Source: a virus. Taken from it: a stretch of 42,875 nucleotides of DNA. A program made the translations under genes and the position numbers. The stretch covers positions 1-42,875 of the IMG/VR virus record IMGVR_UViG_3300005527_000097, one strand, 5' to 3'. Numbering within the stretch: the stretch's first letter is position 1; every line of letters starts with the position of its first letter. Shown one piece after another: positions 3,643 to 42,815 of this stretch. Below the pieces are notes generated by a model. That model worked only from the letters and a program-made list of their open reading frames with translations, did no database searches and had not been told where the DNA came from.

Positions 3643-4611
3643 ATGAATAGAGATTTAGAAGAAGAATTGCCAACGACAATAATGGCATTAAGAACTGTTG
3701 ATGGGTACAAGAGGATTGAGGATACTGATGAAGTAAGTGATTATGATACACCTTGTTGTTGGAGTAGTTTAAAGAATGATGAATATTCTCCCGCTTATCT
3801 TACAACACCACAAGTACCATCTGGTGTTTATGAAATTGCTTGGAACGGTCAACTTGGGACTCATACACTGAAGAAACAACCATTCAATACCGATGAGTTG
3901 TATGAATTACCATCACCTGAAATAACTGATATTATTACCGATATTGAAAACTTTTGGAATAGAGTTGATGTATATAAAAAATACAACTTTGTACACAAAC
4001 GAGGTATTTTATTGTACGGAGAACCAGGGTGTGGTAAATCAGGTATAATTCAGTTACTATCAAAACAATTGATGCAAAGAAACGGTATTGTTATTAATAT
4101 AAAAGATGAAGAAGATTTAGAAAAATTCACATCATTTATACCCACCTTTAGAAAGGTTGAACCTAAAAGACCGTTAACTGTGTTACTTGAAGACATTGAC
4201 TCAATCGCTGGGGAGAATAGATATTCAACGTCAAGATTATTAAACATTTTAGATGGTGTTAAACAGATTGAAAACGTTGTTTACATAGCAACAACCAATT
4301 ACCCTGAGAAACTACAGGAGAGAATCACAAATAGACCTTCTCGTTTTGACAGACGTTATAAAGTTGAGTTACCAAGTGACGAAATTAGAAAATCATATAT
4401 TGTTAATAAACTTAATGATGAAGACTTGGCAACAATTAACATTAATGAGTGGGTTAAGAAAACAAAAGGAATGTCATTGTCTCATCTAAAAGAAGTTGTT
4501 ATCTCAACTATTATTATGGGTAGGGATTTTGATGAAACAATTGATAACCTTGAGGGTATGAAAAAGACCCCTACGGTTAAAGACAAAAAAGAAGTAGGAT
4601 TTGGTAAATAA
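3643..4611 (+). CDS. AAA-family ATPase (BCS1/FtsH-type core)
   Basis: From the ATG at 3643 (322 residues) the protein has an N-terminal region of about 90 residues without known domain, then an AAA core: Walker A GEPGCGKS at 126-133, Walker B LLEDID at 181-186, a sensor region TTNYPEKL around 215, and an Arg-containing SRFDRR segment that fits the AAA arginine finger or SRH region. AAA proteins of this type remodel proteins or complexes in an ATP-dependent hexamer. The phage role is unknown; remodelling of a host or virion complex is possible. An ATG 15 codons upstream lies inside the phosphatase gene. Transcription ends at the terminator at 4616. Confidence 0.85.
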   Translation: MNRDLEEELPTTIMALRTVDGYKRIEDTDEVSDYDTPCCWSSLKNDEYSPAYLTTPQVPSGVYEIAWNGQLGTHTLKKQPFNTDELYELPSPEITDIITDIENFWNRVDVYKKYNFVHKRGILLYGEPGCGKSGIIQLLSKQLMQRNGIVINIKDEEDLEKFTSFIPTFRKVEPKRPLTVLLEDIDSIAGENRYSTSRLLNILDGVKQIENVVYIATTNYPEKLQERITNRPSRFDRRYKVELPSDEIRKSYIVNKLNDEDLATININEWVKKTKGMSLSHLKEVVISTIIMGRDFDETIDNLEGMKKTPTVKDKKEVGFGK

Positions 4612-4615
4612 CAAA

Positions 4616-4645
4616 AAACCCCCTTATTTTTTAGGGGGTTTTATT
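4616..4645. terminator. Bidirectional intrinsic terminator
   Basis: CCCCCTTA and TTAGGGGG form a stem with A-run and T-run flanks on both sides, between the converging AAA ATPase (+) and the minus-strand small gene. Confidence 0.85.
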
Positions 4646-4779
4646 TTGTATTTATAATCAGTCTCAATTTTAGGTAACGGTTTACTTTCCATTATCTTCT
4701 GATAAAGTTCCCAATTATCTGTGGGACTTATTAATGGGTCTATTATCCACTCTGTTTTGTATTTAGGTTCTTTTTTCAT
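4624..4779 (-). CDS. Small hypothetical protein (51 aa)
   Basis: This 51-residue frame follows the HExxH gene on the minus strand and overlaps its end by 17 bases. It is Lys- and Pro-rich with one Trp-containing segment and no known domain. The frame is open further upstream, but longer versions overlap the neighbour heavily, so I chose the ATG at 4779. Its stop lies within the terminator hairpin. It may be real but is weakly supported. Confidence 0.45.
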   Translation of the reverse strand: MKKEPKYKTEWIIDPLISPTDNWELYQKIMESKPLPKIETDYKYKIKPPKK

Positions 4780-5920
4780 TTGTATTAGATTTAACATAAA
4801 TTTTTCTAATGATGTTTGAATGAGTATCTTCAGGGTCTTGGGCCATTTCATAAAGTTTACCAATCTTTTTCGCCATTTTTTCTCCTACAAAATTAAACAA
4901 TTTAATTTCATTTTTATAAAAATTTAATGGGTTATTTTGATACTTTGAAAATTTTGATAAGTTTTTATAAAAATATTTACCTTTATCACTTTCAGGGTCA
5001 ATCCCTCCCATGAATTCCATAAATTTTAAAAGACTGTCCTCTTCCCCCGATATTAATAAATGTTTTAACATCTCACCCTTATCGTTAGTTAAGTTTATAT
5101 AACCCAACTCTAAGATTAGATTAATAATCTCATCATCACTTTCAGGGACATCAATATCACTGTCACGTAAACGAGTTTTAATAGTTTCAATATCAGATTT
5201 CAACTCTGACACTAAGTCCTCAAACGTATAGTTTTTTAAAACCATAAATTCTTTAAAAGTTTTATCATTTAAAAGGAATTCTAAAAATTGAGTTTTATTG
5301 ACATCGGATAATATCATTCTTGAGGCAACTTCAGTTGGTTTAACTAAAGTCTCAGTTAATGTTGCCAAATAAAGATAATGGAAAAATATTCTTAAAGGTT
5401 TAATACCAAATGCCCCGAAATTGGATGTTGTACCATAGTCAACAATATGTGTCAATGGTTTTTCAGGTTCTTTAAAATTGTCATATGCGTGTTTTAATTC
5501 GTGAGATAACGAAGGTAAAATCTCTGTTTTTTCATCTTTTAAAAATTTAATTATTTCAGACATATTAACATCCCTTTCAGGTAAATAAAGAGAAACGGAA
5601 ATGTATAATTCTGAAAAATCTTGTAAAGACATACTCACAAATTTTTTAATGTTATGAGTATATCTTGGCGAAAAACCCATACCTGCCATTAAAATTTTAT
5701 CGGTATCAACAAAATCCAACTCAATCCGAGCATGAACTTTTTTAATATTAAGTTCATTGATTTGTAAATTAGTACTGAACCCTATATCAAATTTACTATC
5801 CTCGTCAAATGTTTCATTTGATTCATACGATAATTGTTTTAATAAATCTTTATATAATTTCTCACCTGACAACAAAATGTTTTCAGGAACACCTAACGCC
5901 TCTAATATATATTTTTTCAT
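4763..5920 (-). CDS. Putative zinc metallopeptidase-like protein (HExxH)
   Basis: The 385-residue protein contains SHELKHAYDNF, an HExxH zinc-binding motif with H140, E141 and H144. The rest has no family I can name. A third zinc ligand is not certain; the conserved-looking Glu in the TEVAS segment about 50 residues later is a candidate. The N-terminus MKKYILEALG contains an (I/L)xE-type site, ILE before Ala, close to the start, like the other tagged proteins in this window. The start overlaps the stop of the upstream muramidase gene, so the two are co-transcribed and probably co-functional, perhaps in the virion. Confidence 0.75.
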   Translation of the reverse strand: MKKYILEALGVPENILLSGEKLYKDLLKQLSYESNETFDEDSKFDIGFSTNLQINELNIKKVHARIELDFVDTDKILMAGMGFSPRYTHNIKKFVSMSLQDFSELYISVSLYLPERDVNMSEIIKFLKDEKTEILPSLSHELKHAYDNFKEPEKPLTHIVDYGTTSNFGAFGIKPLRIFFHYLYLATLTETLVKPTEVASRMILSDVNKTQFLEFLLNDKTFKEFMVLKNYTFEDLVSELKSDIETIKTRLRDSDIDVPESDDEIINLILELGYINLTNDKGEMLKHLLISGEEDSLLKFMEFMGGIDPESDKGKYFYKNLSKFSKYQNNPLNFYKNEIKLFNFVGEKMAKKIGKLYEMAQDPEDTHSNIIRKIYVKSNTNEKRT

Positions 5921-6759
5921 TATGCTACTCCAAATGATTTTGATGCCTCAATGGCTTTATTTCTATGACCACTTCGTTTTTTTCTTGCGTTTTTGTCGGC
6001 AAAATAACTTGCGGCATCTTCTTTACTTGAAAATTTAGGTATACTTGATGGTGATTGACCATCTAATAAAAATGTAACCGCAATTTTTGCAGCAATGTCG
6101 TTTCTATTTAGCATTTCAGGATTTGACTCAAGACTCACCCCTGAAAGTTGACCGTATTTTCTGTAATTACCTCTTCCAGTCAACTGATTAAATCCTCTAC
6201 CTCTAAAATTCCACCCATCACCACCTCCTTGATTACCCGCAATTTTTGCGTAAACTAAATTAAAGAACTCTTTTGCGTTACTTTTTAACTTATTTAGTTC
6301 ACCATCGGAAAATTTACTAACTCTTGAACCAAAAATTTTTCTAATTCTTGAATTATCTGTATTAGCGTATGAAACCTCACCTTTAGGTTTAAAATTGGAT
6401 TCTTTTTTAACGACAGATAACATACCTATTTGAGCTAAAGGGTCGGTTATTCCCTTTTTTTTCATTTCATCAATTAATAAAGAAATATTATTTTTTTGAA
6501 TACTATCAAAGTTACCTAAAAGTTTAACTTTACCAAATGACCCTGAACCCTGAACATTTTCAGTACTATCAACAGGTTCATCTGAATTGTCGGTGGATGA
6601 TGAATCGGTAGGTTCCGTTGTTTTTGCGTTCTTTATACCTTTTAGTATTAAGTTACCAATAACACTTCCTGTATCTCTATCTGTATCAATAAAATCGGAT
6701 TCAATTAAAGACTGTCTAATTAAAAACTTTTTTTGACTCTCAGTTATAACTAATTTCAT
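5920..6759 (-). CDS. GH19-like muramidase/chitinase with virion-type N-terminal tag
   Basis: From the ATG at 6759 the protein (279 residues) has three parts. Residues 1-21 form a tag, VITESQKK then LIRQSLIES, ending in an (L/I)xE site. Residues 46-72 are a Ser/Thr/Asp-rich linker. Residues 80-279 form a lysozyme-like domain of the GH19 type, with the likely catalytic Glu at 120 in VVKKESNF and the typical GRGFNQLTGRGNY segment. It should cleave peptidoglycan glycan strands. Unlike the soluble endolysin at 11336-12154 it has no PG-binding domain, and the tag suggests it travels in the particle. A TATTTAT box lies 17 bases before the ATG. An in-frame ATG 12 codons upstream would destroy the tag pattern. 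Confidence 0.8.
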   Translation of the reverse strand: MKLVITESQKKFLIRQSLIESDFIDTDRDTGSVIGNLILKGIKNAKTTEPTDSSSTDNSDEPVDSTENVQGSGSFGKVKLLGNFDSIQKNNISLLIDEMKKKGITDPLAQIGMLSVVKKESNFKPKGEVSYANTDNSRIRKIFGSRVSKFSDGELNKLKSNAKEFFNLVYAKIAGNQGGGDGWNFRGRGFNQLTGRGNYRKYGQLSGVSLESNPEMLNRNDIAAKIAVTFLLDGQSPSSIPKFSSKEDAASYFADKNARKKRSGHRNKAIEASKSFGVA

Positions 6760-6811
6760 TTTTTTTATCTTTTTATATAAATACTTCCCTATCATTAAAG
6801 TTTATATAAGA

Positions 6812-12242: not shown

Positions 12243-14003
12243 ATGAATAAAATATCAAAAATATCGTTATTCTTTGGGATTATAGGTTTAGTTTCATTTT
12301 TAACGATGCATACCTTAATATATACCGAATTAATGTTAGTTACGGAGAGTGTTTTAAGGTTTAGTTTTTATTCTAAAGCGTTCATTGTTTTTTGTTTAAT
12401 AGTTTTTATTATTGAATACCTAAAAAGAAATAAGGTTATTGAAATAGAATCTGAATATACTAAAAAACTAATTGATGTTTTAATATCCCAATCTCATAAT
12501 CCTTTGTTTTATGTTGGTAATACTATTGATGGTGCTAAAATATTAACAAATGAAGTGACTGAAACAATAAACACTGATAGATGTTCCATATGGTTATATA
12601 ATGAGGATAAAACATCAATAATTTGTGAACAATTATTCGTTAAAAGTGAAAATAAATGGTATAGTGGAACTGAATTATTTAAAAAAGATTTTGAGTCTTA
12701 TTTTACGTCATTAATATATAATCCAATAATAATTGCCAATGATGCTGAGACTCATCAGGCGACAAATTGTTTTAAAGATAGTTACCTTAAACCATTAGGT
12801 ATTAAGTCTATGTTAGACGTTCCCATAATATATGGGGGTGATATTATAGGCGTTATCTGTATTGAAAGTCTAACTAAACGAGAGTGGACTAACTTAGAAG
12901 TTAATTTTGCGCAAATTTTATCATCACTTTATTCATTTGCGTATTCAGTTAAAATATCAAATAACGTAAGTAAAAATATTAAAGACATTGAAGGATTTAT
13001 TGACTATTCAGTATTGGTTAGTAAAGCGGATAAAAATGGTAAAATAACTTATGTTAATAAGAGGTTTGAAGAAGTTTCAGGTTGGTCTTTATCTGAAGTT
13101 TTAGGTCAAGACCATAATATTGTTAATTCAGGGGCTCACCCAAAAAAATATTGGTCCGATATGTATAAAACAATATTAGTGGATAATAAAATATGGAACA
13201 ATGTCGTAACTAATAAAAATAAAAACGGTGAATTGTATTGGGTTGATTCATATATTAAGGCCGAATTTGATAGCGACAATAACCTTACAGGATTTATGTC
13301 AATAAGATATGATGTAACAGAGTTAATGAAAACTTTAAAAGAGATTGACAAAAAAAACACCTATTTAGAGCATGCGGCAAAAATACTAAGACACGATATG
13401 CACTCAGGGATAAATACTTACATCCCAAGAGGGTTGAGTTCACTAGAACGACGATTAACTAATGATGATATTGAAAGGTTAAAAATTGAAGGTCCTCTTA
13501 AAATGTTGAGGGAAGGGTTAAAACATTCGCAAAAAGTATATAAGGGGGTTTATGAGTTTACTAATTTAGTTAAGAAAGATGCTGTTTTAGAAAAAACTGT
13601 TTGTAACGTAAAAGAAATATTAGATAGTTACTTATCAAGTACATCTTATAAGTCACAAGTCGTATTAGAAGAGTTACCTACATTAGAAGTTAATGAATCT
13701 TTATTTTGTACCGCAGTTGATAATCTAATTAGAAACGGGTTAAAATATAATGATAGTGATACTAAATTTGTAAAAATTTATAGTGAAGAAAGTCACATTA
13801 TCATCCAAGATAATGGTAGAGGGATAACCCAAAAAGACTTTGAGAAATTATCTCAACCGTATACTAGAAAGGAAGGACAAAAAGAATCTGGTACAGGGTT
13901 GGGTTTAAATATTTGTATTGCAATACTTAAAGAACATGGTTTTGAGATATCTTGTGAGAAGAACAAAATAGGGACCAAAATAAAAATAAAAATAAAAAAT
14001 TAA
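12243..14003 (+). CDS. Membrane sensor histidine kinase (TM-GAF-PAS-HisKA-HATPase)
   Basis: The 586-residue protein has two N-terminal membrane helices (about 7-27 and 40-60), a GAF-like domain (about 75-235), a PAS domain (about 255-370, with KADKNGKITYVNKRFEEVSGW), a dimerisation helix with the phospho-accepting His at 384 in LRHDMHSG, and an HATPase domain with N-box NLIRNGLKYND, G1 box DNGRGI and G2 box GTGLGLNIC. All catalytic motifs are present, so it should autophosphorylate. The short periplasmic loop implies that sensing occurs through GAF or PAS, perhaps of redox state, light or a small molecule. It is followed after three bases by a receiver protein. Sensor kinases are very rare in phages, and this looks like a captured but intact copy. 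Confidence 0.9.
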   Translation: MNKISKISLFFGIIGLVSFLTMHTLIYTELMLVTESVLRFSFYSKAFIVFCLIVFIIEYLKRNKVIEIESEYTKKLIDVLISQSHNPLFYVGNTIDGAKILTNEVTETINTDRCSIWLYNEDKTSIICEQLFVKSENKWYSGTELFKKDFESYFTSLIYNPIIIANDAETHQATNCFKDSYLKPLGIKSMLDVPIIYGGDIIGVICIESLTKREWTNLEVNFAQILSSLYSFAYSVKISNNVSKNIKDIEGFIDYSVLVSKADKNGKITYVNKRFEEVSGWSLSEVLGQDHNIVNSGAHPKKYWSDMYKTILVDNKIWNNVVTNKNKNGELYWVDSYIKAEFDSDNNLTGFMSIRYDVTELMKTLKEIDKKNTYLEHAAKILRHDMHSGINTYIPRGLSSLERRLTNDDIERLKIEGPLKMLREGLKHSQKVYKGVYEFTNLVKKDAVLEKTVCNVKEILDSYLSSTSYKSQVVLEELPTLEVNESLFCTAVDNLIRNGLKYNDSDTKFVKIYSEESHIIIQDNGRGITQKDFEKLSQPYTRKEGQKESGTGLGLNICIAILKEHGFEISCEKNKIGTKIKIKIKN

Positions 14004-15427: not shown

Positions 15428-17299
15428 ATGAGTAAAATTATTGGAATTGATTTAGGTACAACAAATTCGTGTGTTGCGGTAATGGAAGGTAATGAACCTA
15501 TTGTTATCCCAAACAGTGAAGGTAAAAGAACTACACCATCAATTGTGGGGTATGTGAATGAAGGGGAAAGAAAAGTGGGTGACCCCGCTAAAAGACAATC
15601 TGTGACAAACCCAACTAAAACTGTTTATTCAATTAAAAGATTTATGGGGTCAACCTACGACGAATCTAAAGACGAAGTTGGTAAAGTTCCGTATTCCGTA
15701 ATTAAAGGTAAGAATAACTCACCTAGAGTTAAAATTGATGGTAAGGAATACTCACCACAAGAAATTTCAGCAACTATCCTTCAGAAAATGAAAAAGACGG
15801 CTGAGGACTATTTGGGTACTACAGTTACTGAGGCGGTTATTACTGTTCCTGCGTACTTTAATGATGCTCAACGTCAAGCAACTAAAGAAGCGGGTGAAAT
15901 TGCGGGATTAAAAGTTAGACGAATTATCAATGAACCAACCGCGGCGGCATTGGCTTACGGACTTGATAAAAAATCAAAAGATGCCGTTGTCGTTGTATTT
16001 GACTGTGGTGGTGGAACTCATGACGTTTCTATCCTTGAGTTAGGTGATGGTGTTTTTGAGGTAATGGCAACTGATGGTGATACTCATTTGGGTGGTGATG
16101 ACTTTGACCAAGCAATTATTGATTATTTGGTTGGAGAGTTTAAAAAAGAACATAATATTGACCCAAGTCAGGACCCAATGGCATTACAAAGACTGAAAGA
16201 GTCTGCTGAAAAAGCAAAAATTGAGTTGTCTTCATCATCATCAACCGAAATTAATTTACCATATTTAATTCCTGTTGATGGAATCCCAAAACATTTAGTG
16301 TTAACATTAACAAAATCTAAATTTGAACAACTTGTTGATGATTTGGTTAAAAGAACTATTGAACCTTGTAAAACAGCGTTGAAAAATGCGGGTATTAAAA
16401 CAACTGATATTGATGAAATTATATTGGTTGGGGGGACAACAAGAATTCCCGCAATTCAAGAGGCGGTTAAAAACTTCTTCGGTAAAGAACCTTCAAAAGG
16501 GGTTAATCCTGATGAGGTTGTTGCGTTAGGTGCGGCAATTCAAGGAGGTGTATTGGCTGGAGATGTTAAAGATGTCTTGTTATTAGACGTTACACCACTT
16601 TCATTAGGTATTGAGACTATGGGTGGGGTGTTTACTAAGTTAATTGAATCTAACACAACAATCCCAACTAAAAAATCTCAGGTATTCTCAACAGCAGTTG
16701 ACAATCAACCAAGTGTTGATATTCATGTATTACAAGGTGAAAGAGCGATGGCCAAAGACAATAAAACTATTGGTAGATTCCAATTGACCGATATTCCACC
16801 ATCACAAAGAGGAGTCCCTCAAATTGAAGTGACTTTTGACATTGACGCTAATGGTATTATTAATGTATCGGCAGTTGATAAAGGAACAAATAAAGTTCAA
16901 TCAATTAGAATTGAGTCTTCATCAGGTTTATCCAAAGAAGAAATTGATAAAATGAAGGCAGATGCCGAAGCAAATGCTGAATCAGACCAAAAGGCGAGAG
17001 AAGAAGTTGAATTAATTAACAAAGCGGATTCTACAGTATTTCAATCTGAAAGGTCTTTAAAAGACTTAGAGGAAAAAATATCAGAAACTGATAAGAATGA
17101 ATTAACAGAACTTATCAGTAGTTTAAAAGAATCTGTAGATAAAAAAGAGTTAACTATTTTGGAATCTAAAATGGAAACATTAAACAATAAATTCCAATCA
17201 GTTTCTCAAAACTTGTATGAGAATTCTAATAATGAATCAACCAACGAATCAACAAATGATACTGATTTTTCAGATGTAGAATTTGAAGAAGTCAAGTAA
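15428..17299 (+). CDS. dnaK: DnaK (Hsp70) chaperone
   Basis: This is a full-length Hsp70 of 623 residues: the nucleotide-binding domain starts with [16 protein letters not shown], includes [11 protein letters not shown] and the [11 protein letters not shown] motif, the [18 protein letters not shown] linker region follows, then the beta substrate-binding domain and a helical lid ending in DVEFEEVK, the tail typical of Bacteroidota DnaK. It binds exposed hydrophobic segments in an ATP-controlled cycle and normally needs DnaJ and GrpE, which are not in this window. The second phosphate loop reads [10 protein letters not shown] where DLGGGTFDVS is usual, so Leu and Phe are replaced by Cys and His. 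It was probably acquired from a host. It stands alone behind a long A+T-rich leader with a possible operator. Confidence 0.97.
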
Positions 17300-40143: not shown

Positions 40144-40149
40144 CAATAC

Positions 40150-40300
40150 GACTCCATAACTGTTAGGGTCGCAACCGAAGCGGTGAGTGGGTTAACGATG
40201 ATAATTTGTAGTTGGCACCCGTAGTACTAGTATATGGGTCACTTAGGTCAAAGCATCTTATATGTAGTTAACAAGGTGGGTTCGATTCCCATTGGGGTCA
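40150..40300 (+). ncRNA. tRNA-like RNA 1 (151 nt)
   Basis: The ends are those of a tRNA: GACTCCA at 40150-40156 pairs with TGGGGTC at 40293-40299, and a perfect T-arm GTGGG-TTCGATT-CCCAT precedes the 3' strand. Between them lie about 120 bases instead of about 40, with no normal D-arm or anticodon arm. Inside are ACCG-AAG-CGGT, a 7-bp hairpin ACCCGTA/TATGGGT, and two copies of GTTAAC with adjacent GATG and CATC that can pair. It could be an intron-bearing or strongly expanded tRNA, or a small RNA that uses a tRNA-like end for processing. Confidence 0.6.
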
Positions 40301-40304
40301 CAAT

Positions 40305-40635: not shown

Positions 40636-40644
40636 CAATAGGTT

Positions 40645-40733
40645 GATTGGGGAAGGGTGATACTAATGACACGAGAGTGTATATCGGTCAGTATCATCGG
40701 AGTTGGGAGATATACACCAAAGTAATGCCAATC
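40645..40733 (+). ncRNA. Pseudoknot RNA A (89 nt)
   Basis: GATTGG (40645-40650) and CCAATC (40728-40733) close the element. Inside, two perfect helices interleave: TGATACT (40658) pairs with AGTATCA (40690), and GTGTATATC (40677) pairs with GATATACAC (40709). The order 1-2-1'-2' cannot be drawn as nested hairpins and implies an H-type pseudoknot. A short ACAC-GAGA-GTGT hairpin competes with helix 2. A further hairpin (AAATCAG/CTGATTT) follows before tRNA-Tyr. No known family is recognised. Confidence 0.6.
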
Positions 40734-40778
40734 GTAAAATCAGATGTCCACACAACCATCTTCTGATTTCCTAAACTT

Positions 40779-40861: not shown

Positions 40862-40872
40862 CACATAAAACC

Positions 40873-40991
40873 TTCAGGTAGGTGGATTGTGTTACACACC
40901 CCATTGACGAATGGGACGGTCCTAACAATAAATTGCCCAGACGTACAAGCAACGAATATGGACTAAGTGGGTTAGATTCCCACACCTGGAC
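40873..40991 (+). ncRNA. tRNA-like RNA 2 (119 nt)
   Basis: TTCAGGT (40873) pairs with ACCTGGA (40984-40990) as an acceptor stem. GTGGG-TTAGATT-CCCAC is a T-arm with an altered loop (A where C56 is expected). A D-arm GGTG...CACC and a hairpin CCCATT-GACG-AATGGG in the anticodon position are present; GAC would read valine codons if it is an anticodon. About 50 bases then replace the variable loop, closed only by GTCC/GGAC. It could be a tRNA with a giant variable arm or a tRNA-derived regulatory RNA. Confidence 0.55.
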
Positions 40992-41881: not shown

Positions 41882-41895
41882 GTTCTTTGACATAT
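41882..41895 (+). promoter_or_regulatory. boxA-like element 3
   Basis: GTTCTTTGACATAT, identical to elements 1 and 2, lies directly before the closing stem of the structured RNA at 41901. Confidence 0.6.
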
Positions 41896-41900
41896 TAGAT

Positions 41901-42123
41901 TGGTAAGATAGCAGATAGACCTATATCAGCAGAATCCCACAGGGAGTTAGAAATAACGAGCAAGACGGAGCCCCTATCAGATTAAAAGGTTGAGGAGGTA
42001 CTCAAAGTTTTCCGAGAGGTTAACAGGTAAAAACGATGGTTTGGGTAGAACGGATGTTAAAGGCGAGGTATAGGTAGTAAGGATGGGGTGACCCACGAAT
42101 GAGTAAATCTTAAGGTCTTACCA
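41901..42123 (+). ncRNA. Large structured RNA (about 223 nt) after boxA
   Basis: TGGTAAGA (41901-41908) and TCTTACCA (42116-42123) form a perfect closing stem, and ACCTATA (41919) pairs with TATAGGT (42069) just inside. Smaller hairpins include TCCC-ACA-GGGA, GTTA-GAAA-TAAC and TTGAG-GAGGTA-CTCAA. There is no reading frame of note. The order promoter, boxA, closing stem, RNA body, closing stem imitates an rRNA precursor. I find no match to RNase P RNA, tmRNA, SRP RNA or 5S rRNA consensus. Confidence 0.6.
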
Positions 42124-42142
42124 TTTTTAAAATATTGTGTTG
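42121..42142 (+). repeat. Repeat motif copy 1 (CATTTTTAAAATATTGTG)
   Basis: The 18-base motif follows the large structured RNA and recurs at 42464 after pseudoknot RNA B. Both copies continue with [T/G]TG. Confidence 0.7.
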
Positions 42143-42318: not shown

Positions 42319-42350
42319 TTTGGCAATTTAAAATGAAACCCATATCTTTG
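42319..42350 (+). promoter_or_regulatory. Host-type promoter for pseudoknot RNA B
   Basis: TTTG at 42319-42322, a 20-base spacer and TATCTTTG at 42343-42350, with the same TTTGGCA -33 sequence as the promoter at 41785. Confidence 0.65.
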
Positions 42351-42355
42351 AATAA

Positions 42356-42365
42356 GTTCTTTGAA
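42356..42365 (+). promoter_or_regulatory. boxA-like element 4 (variant)
   Basis: GTTCTTTGAA diverges after the first nine bases from the other copies. It stands right after the promoter and before the closing stem at 42370. Confidence 0.45.
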
Positions 42366-42369
42366 AGTA

Positions 42370-42470
42370 AAAAATGTGGTGGTAAGAAAAGGTGAACTCG
42401 TTAAGTTCATAGACCTGTTGACAAATGATGGTGAAACGAGTATAGTTGTCAACTACTGCATCACATTTTT
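42370..42470 (+). ncRNA. Pseudoknot RNA B (101 nt)
   Basis: AAAAATGTGGTG (42370-42381) and CATCACATTTTT (42459-42470) close the element with 12 pairs, one G-U. Inside, ACTCGTT (42396) pairs with AACGAGT (42435), and GTTGACAA (42417) pairs with TTGTCAAC (42446). The helices interleave and give a pseudoknot with the same topology as RNA A at 40645. A GAACT/AGTTC hairpin competes with helix 1. The repeat motif CATTTTTAAAATATTGTG overlaps its 3' end. Confidence 0.65.
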
Positions 42471-42484
42471 AAAATATTGTGGTG
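42464..42484 (+). repeat. Repeat motif copy 2 (CATTTTTAAAATATTGTG)
   Basis: Second copy of the 18-base motif, overlapping the 3' strand of the closing stem of RNA B. The following 50 bases hold a weak hairpin (ACAAC/GTTGT) before tRNA-Asp. Confidence 0.7.
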
Positions 42485-42537
42485 AACAACGCGACCGCAG
42501 GAGTTGTACCTTTATGGTTTTGTAATGTGGTTTTTTT

Positions 42538-42609
42538 GGTCCATTGGTGTAGTGGCAAACATTCATCCCTGTCACGGATGAGCCGCGAGTTCGATTCTCG
42601 CATGGACCG
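42538..42609 (+). tRNA. tRNA-Asp(GUC)
   Basis: Acceptor GGTCCAT pairs with ATGGACC with discriminator G, the anticodon arm CATCC-CTGTCAC-GGATG gives GTC, and the T-arm is GCGAG-TTCGATT-CTCGC. Confidence 0.95.
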
Positions 42610-42620
42610 CAAAAAAAAAC

Positions 42621-42700: not shown

Positions 42701-42713
42701 GTTCTTTGACATA
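42701..42713 (+). promoter_or_regulatory. boxA-like element 5
   Basis: GTTCTTTGACATA, 13 bases identical to elements 1-3, placed between tRNA-Glu and the structured RNA at 42718 with no promoter of its own. Confidence 0.55.
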
Positions 42714-42717
42714 AAAT

Positions 42718-42794
42718 TGTGTTGTTCCCTTGAGAAAGGAATATAAAGGAGTAGGTAGATATTAAAACCACTTAGGCATTATCCTAACAACACA
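42718..42794 (+). ncRNA. Small structured RNA (77 nt) after boxA
   Basis: TGTGTTGTT (42718-42726) and AACAACACA (42786-42794) form a perfect 9-bp stem. Inside are CCTT-GAGA-AAGG and TTAGG-CATTAT-CCTAA hairpins. It follows boxA-like element 5 and precedes tRNA-Leu. No family is recognised. Confidence 0.55.
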
Positions 42795-42815
42795 GGGGGA
42801 TTCTCAACCTCAAAT

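Follow-up and report, generated by a model that had tools for sequence, protein, structure and literature searches.

RNA B, a small pseudoknotted RNA encoded in viral tRNA islands, is probably the product of a non-coding RNA gene of large phages, stable and acting in trans, as suggested by comparison of its sequences and genomic contexts. It was recognized in the window, the whole stretch of 42,875 bases that was analyzed, which is an IMG/VR virus fragment with a tRNA island at its end comprising 18 tRNAs (ARAGORN), all on the + strand. About 95 bases long, RNA B recurs with very little change in about 100 contigs of uncultured viruses, with lengths of up to 304 kb. Our analysis confirmed that the earlier observation on this RNA is real, and the evidence is now stronger than its statement in the preliminary description. 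The features of RNA B and of its surroundings are listed in Table 1.

Table 1. Coordinates of RNA B, its helices and associated elements in the window.
Feature	Position	Strand	Remarks
Bacteroidota-type promoter, -33 TTTG and -7 TATCTTTG	42319..42350	+	Pattern match
boxA-like element GTTCTTTGA	42356..42364	+	5 copies in window vs 0.72 expected
RNA B, closed pseudoknot RNA	42370..42470	+	Covariance model R1 match 42370-42472, 99.1 bits, a score reached by construction because the window copy is in the R1 training set
Closing stem P1, 5' strand	42370..42381	+	Pairs with 42459-42470; 12 pairs, one G-U
Inner closing helix P1b, GUA	42382..42384	+	Pairs with UAC 42454-42456
Helix H1, 5' strand ACTCGTT	42396..42402	+	Pairs with 42435-42441
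Helix H3, 5' strand CAU	42408..42410	+	Pairs with AUG 42428-42430
Pseudoknot helix H2, 5' strand GTTGACAA	42417..42424	+	Pairs with 42446-42453
Helix H3, 3' strand AUG	42428..42430	+	Pairs with 42408-42410
Helix H1, 3' strand AACGAGT	42435..42441	+	Pairs with 42396-42402
Pseudoknot helix H2, 3' strand TTGTCAAC	42446..42453	+	Pairs with 42417-42424
Closing stem P1, 3' strand	42459..42470	+	Pairs with 42370-42381
TTTTTAAAATATTGTG, leader element of next RNA module, overlapping P1 3' end	42466..42481	+	
Module Z, separate conserved RNA between RNA B and tRNA-Asp	42482..42532	+	
tRNA-Asp (GUC), next tRNA of the transcription unit	42538..42610	+	ARAGORN and Rfam
RNA A, second closed pseudoknot RNA	40637-40778		Full-length 78-98% identity in five other phages

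Comparison of the sequences shows a fold in which the closing stem encloses a two-part hairpin (H1 and H3) whose apical loop pairs with a segment located 3' of the hairpin, forming H2. The 12-bp closing stem and the two interleaved perfect helices reported previously were all present as described, while H3, which is nested within H1, crossed by H2 and made of four pairs in most relatives, had been overlooked together with the short inner closing helix. Among 1000 dinucleotide shuffles of the 102 nt of RNA B, a crossing pair of perfect helices with minimum lengths of 7 and 8 bp appeared once and such a pair within a stem of at least 10 bp did not appear, and none of 25 shuffled islands contained the full RNA B-type arrangement. 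Since the shuffles of the 102 nt almost never reproduce the fold, the structure of RNA B is not explained by chance and base composition.

Four anchored scans of IMG/VR returned 41, 85, 93, and 89 contigs in overlapping sets, and a total of 101 loci hold RNA B, including the window copy and the near-identical contig L101. A few matches of the third scan were due to chance. Besides, L213, L214, and L216-L218 matched a loose scan but lack the RNA B fold, and L191 and L196 gave weak matches to R1 (24 bits) with no resemblance to RNA B. The IMG/VR scan performed with TTTTTAAAATATTGTG only, a short and A/T-rich query, produced mostly chance matches, yet it supplied the first true relatives. No match was found over 42370-42472 in Rfam 15 (4227 families) even at E up to 5, and RNA B was absent from cultured phages (INPHARED), from plasmids and from two phages with related terminases. 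A scan of 84,980 prokaryote genomes gave a single match (L212), which was due to chance, the remainder of the RNA being absent, and our literature search found no description of such an RNA. Whole records carry one copy of RNA B in 23 of 24 cases (72–304 kb for those 23), and the sole record with two copies was L192, a 10.6-kb fragment (5541-5643 and 6670-6772), in which one copy is of the window type and the other of a commoner type. In L051, a contig otherwise like L049 and L058, RNA B lacks its interior (~4539-4659), which is either a deletion or an assembly error. Complementarity between the loops of RNA B and the rest of the window was limited to scattered 8-9-mers.

The relatives were aligned as 58 and later as 50 distinct sequences, and the pair statistics refer to the 50-sequence alignment. 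Single-sequence folding never formed the crossing helices together and RNAalifold without pseudoknots detects mainly H2, and because of these limits the pairs were counted for a named structure. Changes on both sides were observed in 16 of the 28 pairs, 92.6% of the cells of the whole structure were paired compared to 33–52% in slid controls, and the covariation score was 0.278 against 0.147 when shuffled, with none of 500 shuffles reaching the observed value. Compensatory changes were present in every helix, H3 included, and homologous structures of this kind, whose absence would have counted against the pseudoknot according to the preliminary description, were found in relatives. All seven family-wide modelled pairs of P1 were doubly changed, with 74.5% of cells paired as aligned, and the register of this stem shifts in some phages. 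P1b was 100% paired in the 50 sequences, with one pair doubly changed (G-C to A-U in five of them). H1, whose family core is CUCGU/ACGAG, was also 100% paired and has one doubly changed pair, a C-G to U-A replacement that gives CUUGU/ACAAG in two groups (L215, and L227-L230/L232/L237, comprising L228 and identical copies); L129 carries the U-G intermediate, and the scans that yielded these double changes had left that pair unconstrained. In H3 (96% paired) one pair changed from C-G to U-A in 10 of the 50 sequences, corresponding by parsimony to at least four independent double changes, while H2 was 98.2% paired with 6 of 9 pairs changed on both sides, the best pairs showing 4–9 independent double changes by parsimony. 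The trees considered included one obtained from unpaired columns only.

The bases outside the helices are nearly invariant and unpaired core columns were less variable than paired ones (mean entropy of 0.22 vs 0.37), a conservation that at the anchor positions is partly by construction, since the scan anchors require conserved bases. Conservation at the helix positions left free in the third and fourth IMG/VR scans is unaffected by the anchors. The third scan left the crossing helices all but unconstrained, touching only the last pair of H1, and the fourth placed no constraint on H2 or on three of the five pairs of H1, so that the covariation seen there was not created by the search. Moreover, H2 crosses both H1 and H3, and therefore the pseudoknot as such is supported. 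Alternating conformations of H1/H3 and H2 would also be compatible with the covariation. The link between H1 and H2 has only 4 nt, which is too short for a straight stack of H1, loop and H3 and thus calls for either a sharp bend in the internal loop or such an alternation; judging from this geometry, the internal loop AAAGUG/GUGAA would have to bend.

The promoter and the boxA variant previously reported ahead of RNA B are present in the window and in most relatives. The promoter pattern, based on the Bacteroidota consensus (PMC7366714), is weak alone, with seven occurrences in the window vs 3.65 expected. Among the relatives, 62 of 66 distinct contexts have a TTTG/TANNTTTG promoter no more than 300 nt ahead of RNA B, and in 49 the distance is no more than 90 nt. 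In five distinct contexts the -7 box ends 7–9 nt before P1, and the expected transcription start thus lies approximately at the first base of P1. The boxA-like elements of the 89 relative loci lie predominantly on the RNA B strand (192 vs 17 on the other strand), at least two same-strand elements being present in 68 of these loci, and 38 of the 66 contexts have an element no farther than 25 nt from P1. The commonest layout consists of the promoter, a G-rich hairpin, the boxA-like element, an A/T-rich leader and RNA B. Other boxA units of the window lead directly into tRNAs (37526 and 41577) or into other RNAs (41882 and 42701). The view that the promoter is dedicated to RNA B stood only in part: the promoter exists, but it usually serves downstream tRNAs too, and only L166 looks free-standing. 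In that contig RNA B is not followed by a tRNA; P1 ends in a T-run, after which there is a short ORF.

RNA B is part of untranslated RNA operons, usually with tRNA or tRNA-like genes downstream. A tRNA starts 3–9 nt after RNA B in 32 of the 75 loci having a downstream tRNA, and the gap to the next recognized tRNA is often 70 to more than 1000 nt. The genes that follow vary among His, Phe, Met, and Asp tRNAs, tRNA-like genes and other modules, further loci have tRNA-like genes overlooked by ARAGORN after RNA B, and RNA B comes second behind another module in L009, L038, and L144. The tRNA-like RNAs found after RNA B in L142 (941-997), L126, L134, L153, and L180 have a T-arm and a matching acceptor, are devoid of a normal anticodon arm and include a miniature one. 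The window itself contains tRNA-like RNAs with acceptor stem, T-arm and an unusual long interior at 40149-40302 and 40872-40991, which were not called by ARAGORN with introns allowed.

A trans-acting RNA would explain the single copy, the variable downstream genes, the free-standing L166, the defined ends and the invariant loops, and it fits the data better than a cis element. The presence of one RNA B per record despite several boxA elements was also counted in favor of a trans-acting gene product, as was the contrast between terminase and RNA B similarities in L222 and L224 described below. Host RNA polymerase would transcribe RNA B together with the tRNAs as an antitermination-competent unit, and the 5' end of the RNA could originate from the start site or from processing within the A/T-rich leader. 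The 3' end may result from RNase P cleavage at the following tRNA or, in window-type copies, alternatively from the T-tract after the closing stem. Once folded, RNA B may bind a conserved partner of host or phage origin, which could be a protein, the ribosome or an RNA, via its invariant internal loops, and the effect would most likely be that some RNA-handling or defence factor of the host is disturbed. Against a trans-acting role stand the near-constant promoter-proximal position, which is equally expected of a cis-acting leader, the two copies in L192 and the geometry of the 4-nt link.

This position is central to a second explanation, in which RNA B is a cis-acting antitermination or anti-Rho leader whose nascent transcript modifies RNA polymerase so that the tRNA operon is read through, boxA being part of the signal. 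We regard such a leader as rather unlikely. The distances of the promoter and of the boxA-like element given above, the untranslated nature of the operons and the strong conservation of the loop bases are in agreement with it; nonetheless, there is one copy per genome even though the islands have several boxA units, and the other boxA units of the window lead into tRNAs or other RNAs instead. In addition, RNA B can come second behind another module, no tRNA follows it in L166, and the Rfam scan, which constitutes the comparison with put and EAR elements, gave no match. A cis antiterminator thus explains the promoter-proximal site and boxA, but not why RNA B occurs on just one boxA unit per island.

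As a special case of the trans-acting RNA, RNA B could be a decoy or mimic of a host RNA that blocks defence, such as a type III antitoxin mimic or an anti-CRISPR RNA, which we consider improbable. Phages do make decoy RNAs of this sort, and the phage-only distribution and strong conservation of RNA B are consistent with this role, but no similarity to any Rfam CRISPR-repeat or ToxI family was detected, and RNA B is a single unit, not a tandem one, and exceeds a ToxI unit in size.

It is very unlikely that RNA B acts as a structural insulator or processing element, i.e., a 5' pseudoknot that shields the tRNA precursor from exonucleases or aids RNase P. The 32 loci in which RNA B directly precedes a tRNA and its ability to begin near the start site of the promoter are compatible with this function, although the near-invariance of the loop bases would be superfluous in a simple roadblock, most island tRNAs have no RNA B, and the next recognized tRNA is often far downstream. 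The crossing helices, invariant loop bases and tRNA neighborhood are also reminiscent of a ribozyme that would split the polycistronic transcript by self-cleavage, similar to the HDV-like theta ribozymes (PMC10879173). This seems highly improbable given that no Rfam ribozyme family matched even at E=5, that a P4-like hairpin is missing and that theta ribozymes were reported downstream of suppressor tRNAs; furthermore, H1 is flanked by conserved sequence on each side, so that the free 5' edge at which HDV-type folds are cleaved is absent. Finally, a short protein-coding gene is virtually ruled out as a general reading: the window has no stop across RNA B in the frame from 42361, and it is in this frame that variation is highest at third codon positions, but stops interrupt this frame in 29 of 58 homologs and the other two frames in 58 of 58 each, some of them formed by bases that H2 requires (UGAGUC), and no start codon is conserved.

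RNA B had also been assigned a conserved 3' motif. The motif TTTTTAAAATATTGTG is real and repeated, but it is the leader of the next module and lies outside RNA B. In the window it precedes modules Y (second copy, 42124-42139) and Z, and the same sequence or a close variant is located 5' of RNA B in L009, L038, L049, L058, and others, and it is therefore not the 3' end of RNA B. Based on these positions, TTTTTAAAATATTGTG is best read as a boxA-like leader common to the modules, and a common leader may have aided module shuffling. Module Z recurs over 53–54 nt at 100% identity in L159, L160, L187, and L197, just ahead of tRNAs, and in L049 it is found behind a module other than RNA B.

The preliminary description also regarded RNA A and RNA B as members of one family. 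RNA A is real and has the same design, with an outer stem around two crossing helices and with covariation: in an alignment of only six sequences, 9 of 23 pairs were doubly changed and the structure was 98.6% paired. The family relationship, however, was not supported, as no homology was detectable: R1, the model built from RNA B, matched only RNA B in the window and did not detect RNA A, and the two sequences do not align, indicating two families with a common topology. Besides, module X (41890-42120), a region of ~250 nt without a gene and without an Rfam match, is 88–91% identical in L185, L172, L058, L051, L049, L154, and L170, and RNA C (42719-42812, behind the boxA at 42701) shows a stem TGTGTTGTT/AACAACACA and a crossing TTGAGAA/TTCTCAA, its 5' part recurring in 25 loci. 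We tentatively propose that pseudoknots A and B, modules C, X, Y, and Z and the tRNA-like RNAs without a normal anticodon arm might form an RNA tool-kit, in which unrelated conserved structured island RNAs would act in trans on host translation or RNA-based defence, and boxA-leader modules would be shuffled between phages.

The carriers of RNA B are phages, with a terminase in 17 of 24 records, and one of these terminases is a distant relative of those of Flavobacterium phage immuto (28% identity) and T4-like phages. The promoters, the boxA elements and the terminase relationship indicate that the hosts are probably Bacteroidota. L222 and L224 share 66% identity in the terminase and 97% in the RNA B core, while L221 and L224 share 94% identity in the terminase and 87% in RNA B, a mismatch that suggests exchange of island modules between phages. 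The window also encodes a full-length DnaK (15428-17299) and, according to sequence reading, a PAS/GAF sensor histidine kinase-like protein (12243-14003), and the region 609-1175 gave a weak Pfam match, below the cut-off, to the anti-CBASS protein Acb1. Similar DnaK-bearing Bacteroidota phages were described in the 'moraphage' paper, in which non-coding RNAs are unmentioned. When DnaK was used as a marker of relatives, it was found in none of 10 records.

Ever since T4 RNAs C and D, it has been asked what the stable RNAs in phage tRNA clusters do, and automatic annotation of such islands lists tRNAs only, missing much of their RNA content. RNA B is small, sharply bounded and available in about 100 natural copies with a covariation-backed fold and near-invariant contact bases, and thus probing, pull-down and deletion experiments can be directly designed. 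Conserved structured cis RNAs that alter RNA polymerase in long transcripts include the put RNAs of phage HK022 and the EAR element of Bacillales; RNA B differs from them in being single-copy and not present at every operon, and it has no Rfam match. The consensus of the DUF2693 RNA (RF02956) starts with GAUCUUUGACAUA, resembling the boxA-like leaders of the window, where this family matched only the leader at 41882 and not RNA B, with 19.3 bits against a cut-off of 81.3.

The HDV-like theta ribozymes of gut phages are located beside phage tRNAs, downstream of suppressor tRNAs (PMC10879173). Both they and RNA B are pseudoknotted RNAs adjoining phage tRNAs, but RNA B has neither the nested double pseudoknot layout of HDV-type folds nor P4, and matches no Rfam ribozyme. 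GOLLD and ROOL are large, elaborately structured phage non-coding RNAs of unknown function often found near tRNA islands, and ROOL contains pseudoknots (PMC12286853); they span several hundred nt, compared to ~95 for RNA B, have no Rfam match in the window and are looser counterparts of RNA B than T4 RNAs C and D. The gene arrangement around RNA B resembles that of T4 rnaC (species 1) and rnaD (species 2), which are small stable RNAs that a large tailed phage encodes in its tRNA cluster, annotated at 70908-71171 and separated by 1–6 nt from the next RNA. Both are late RNAs whose function is unknown (PMC9697503). T4 rnaC ends in a tRNA T-arm that RNA B does not have, and the best R1 match in the T4 tRNA region with filters off (14.2 bits, E 0.11) fell outside rnaC and rnaD. 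Two 13-14-mers are common to rnaC and RNA B, and the number of shared 11-mers was reached by none of 1000 shuffles; since the 13-14-mers are not kept in diverged rnaC homologs, they were treated as chance. As the searches for membership in rnaC/rnaD, GOLLD and ROOL gave negative results, RNA B is placed as a new RNA family among the structured RNAs of phage tRNA clusters.
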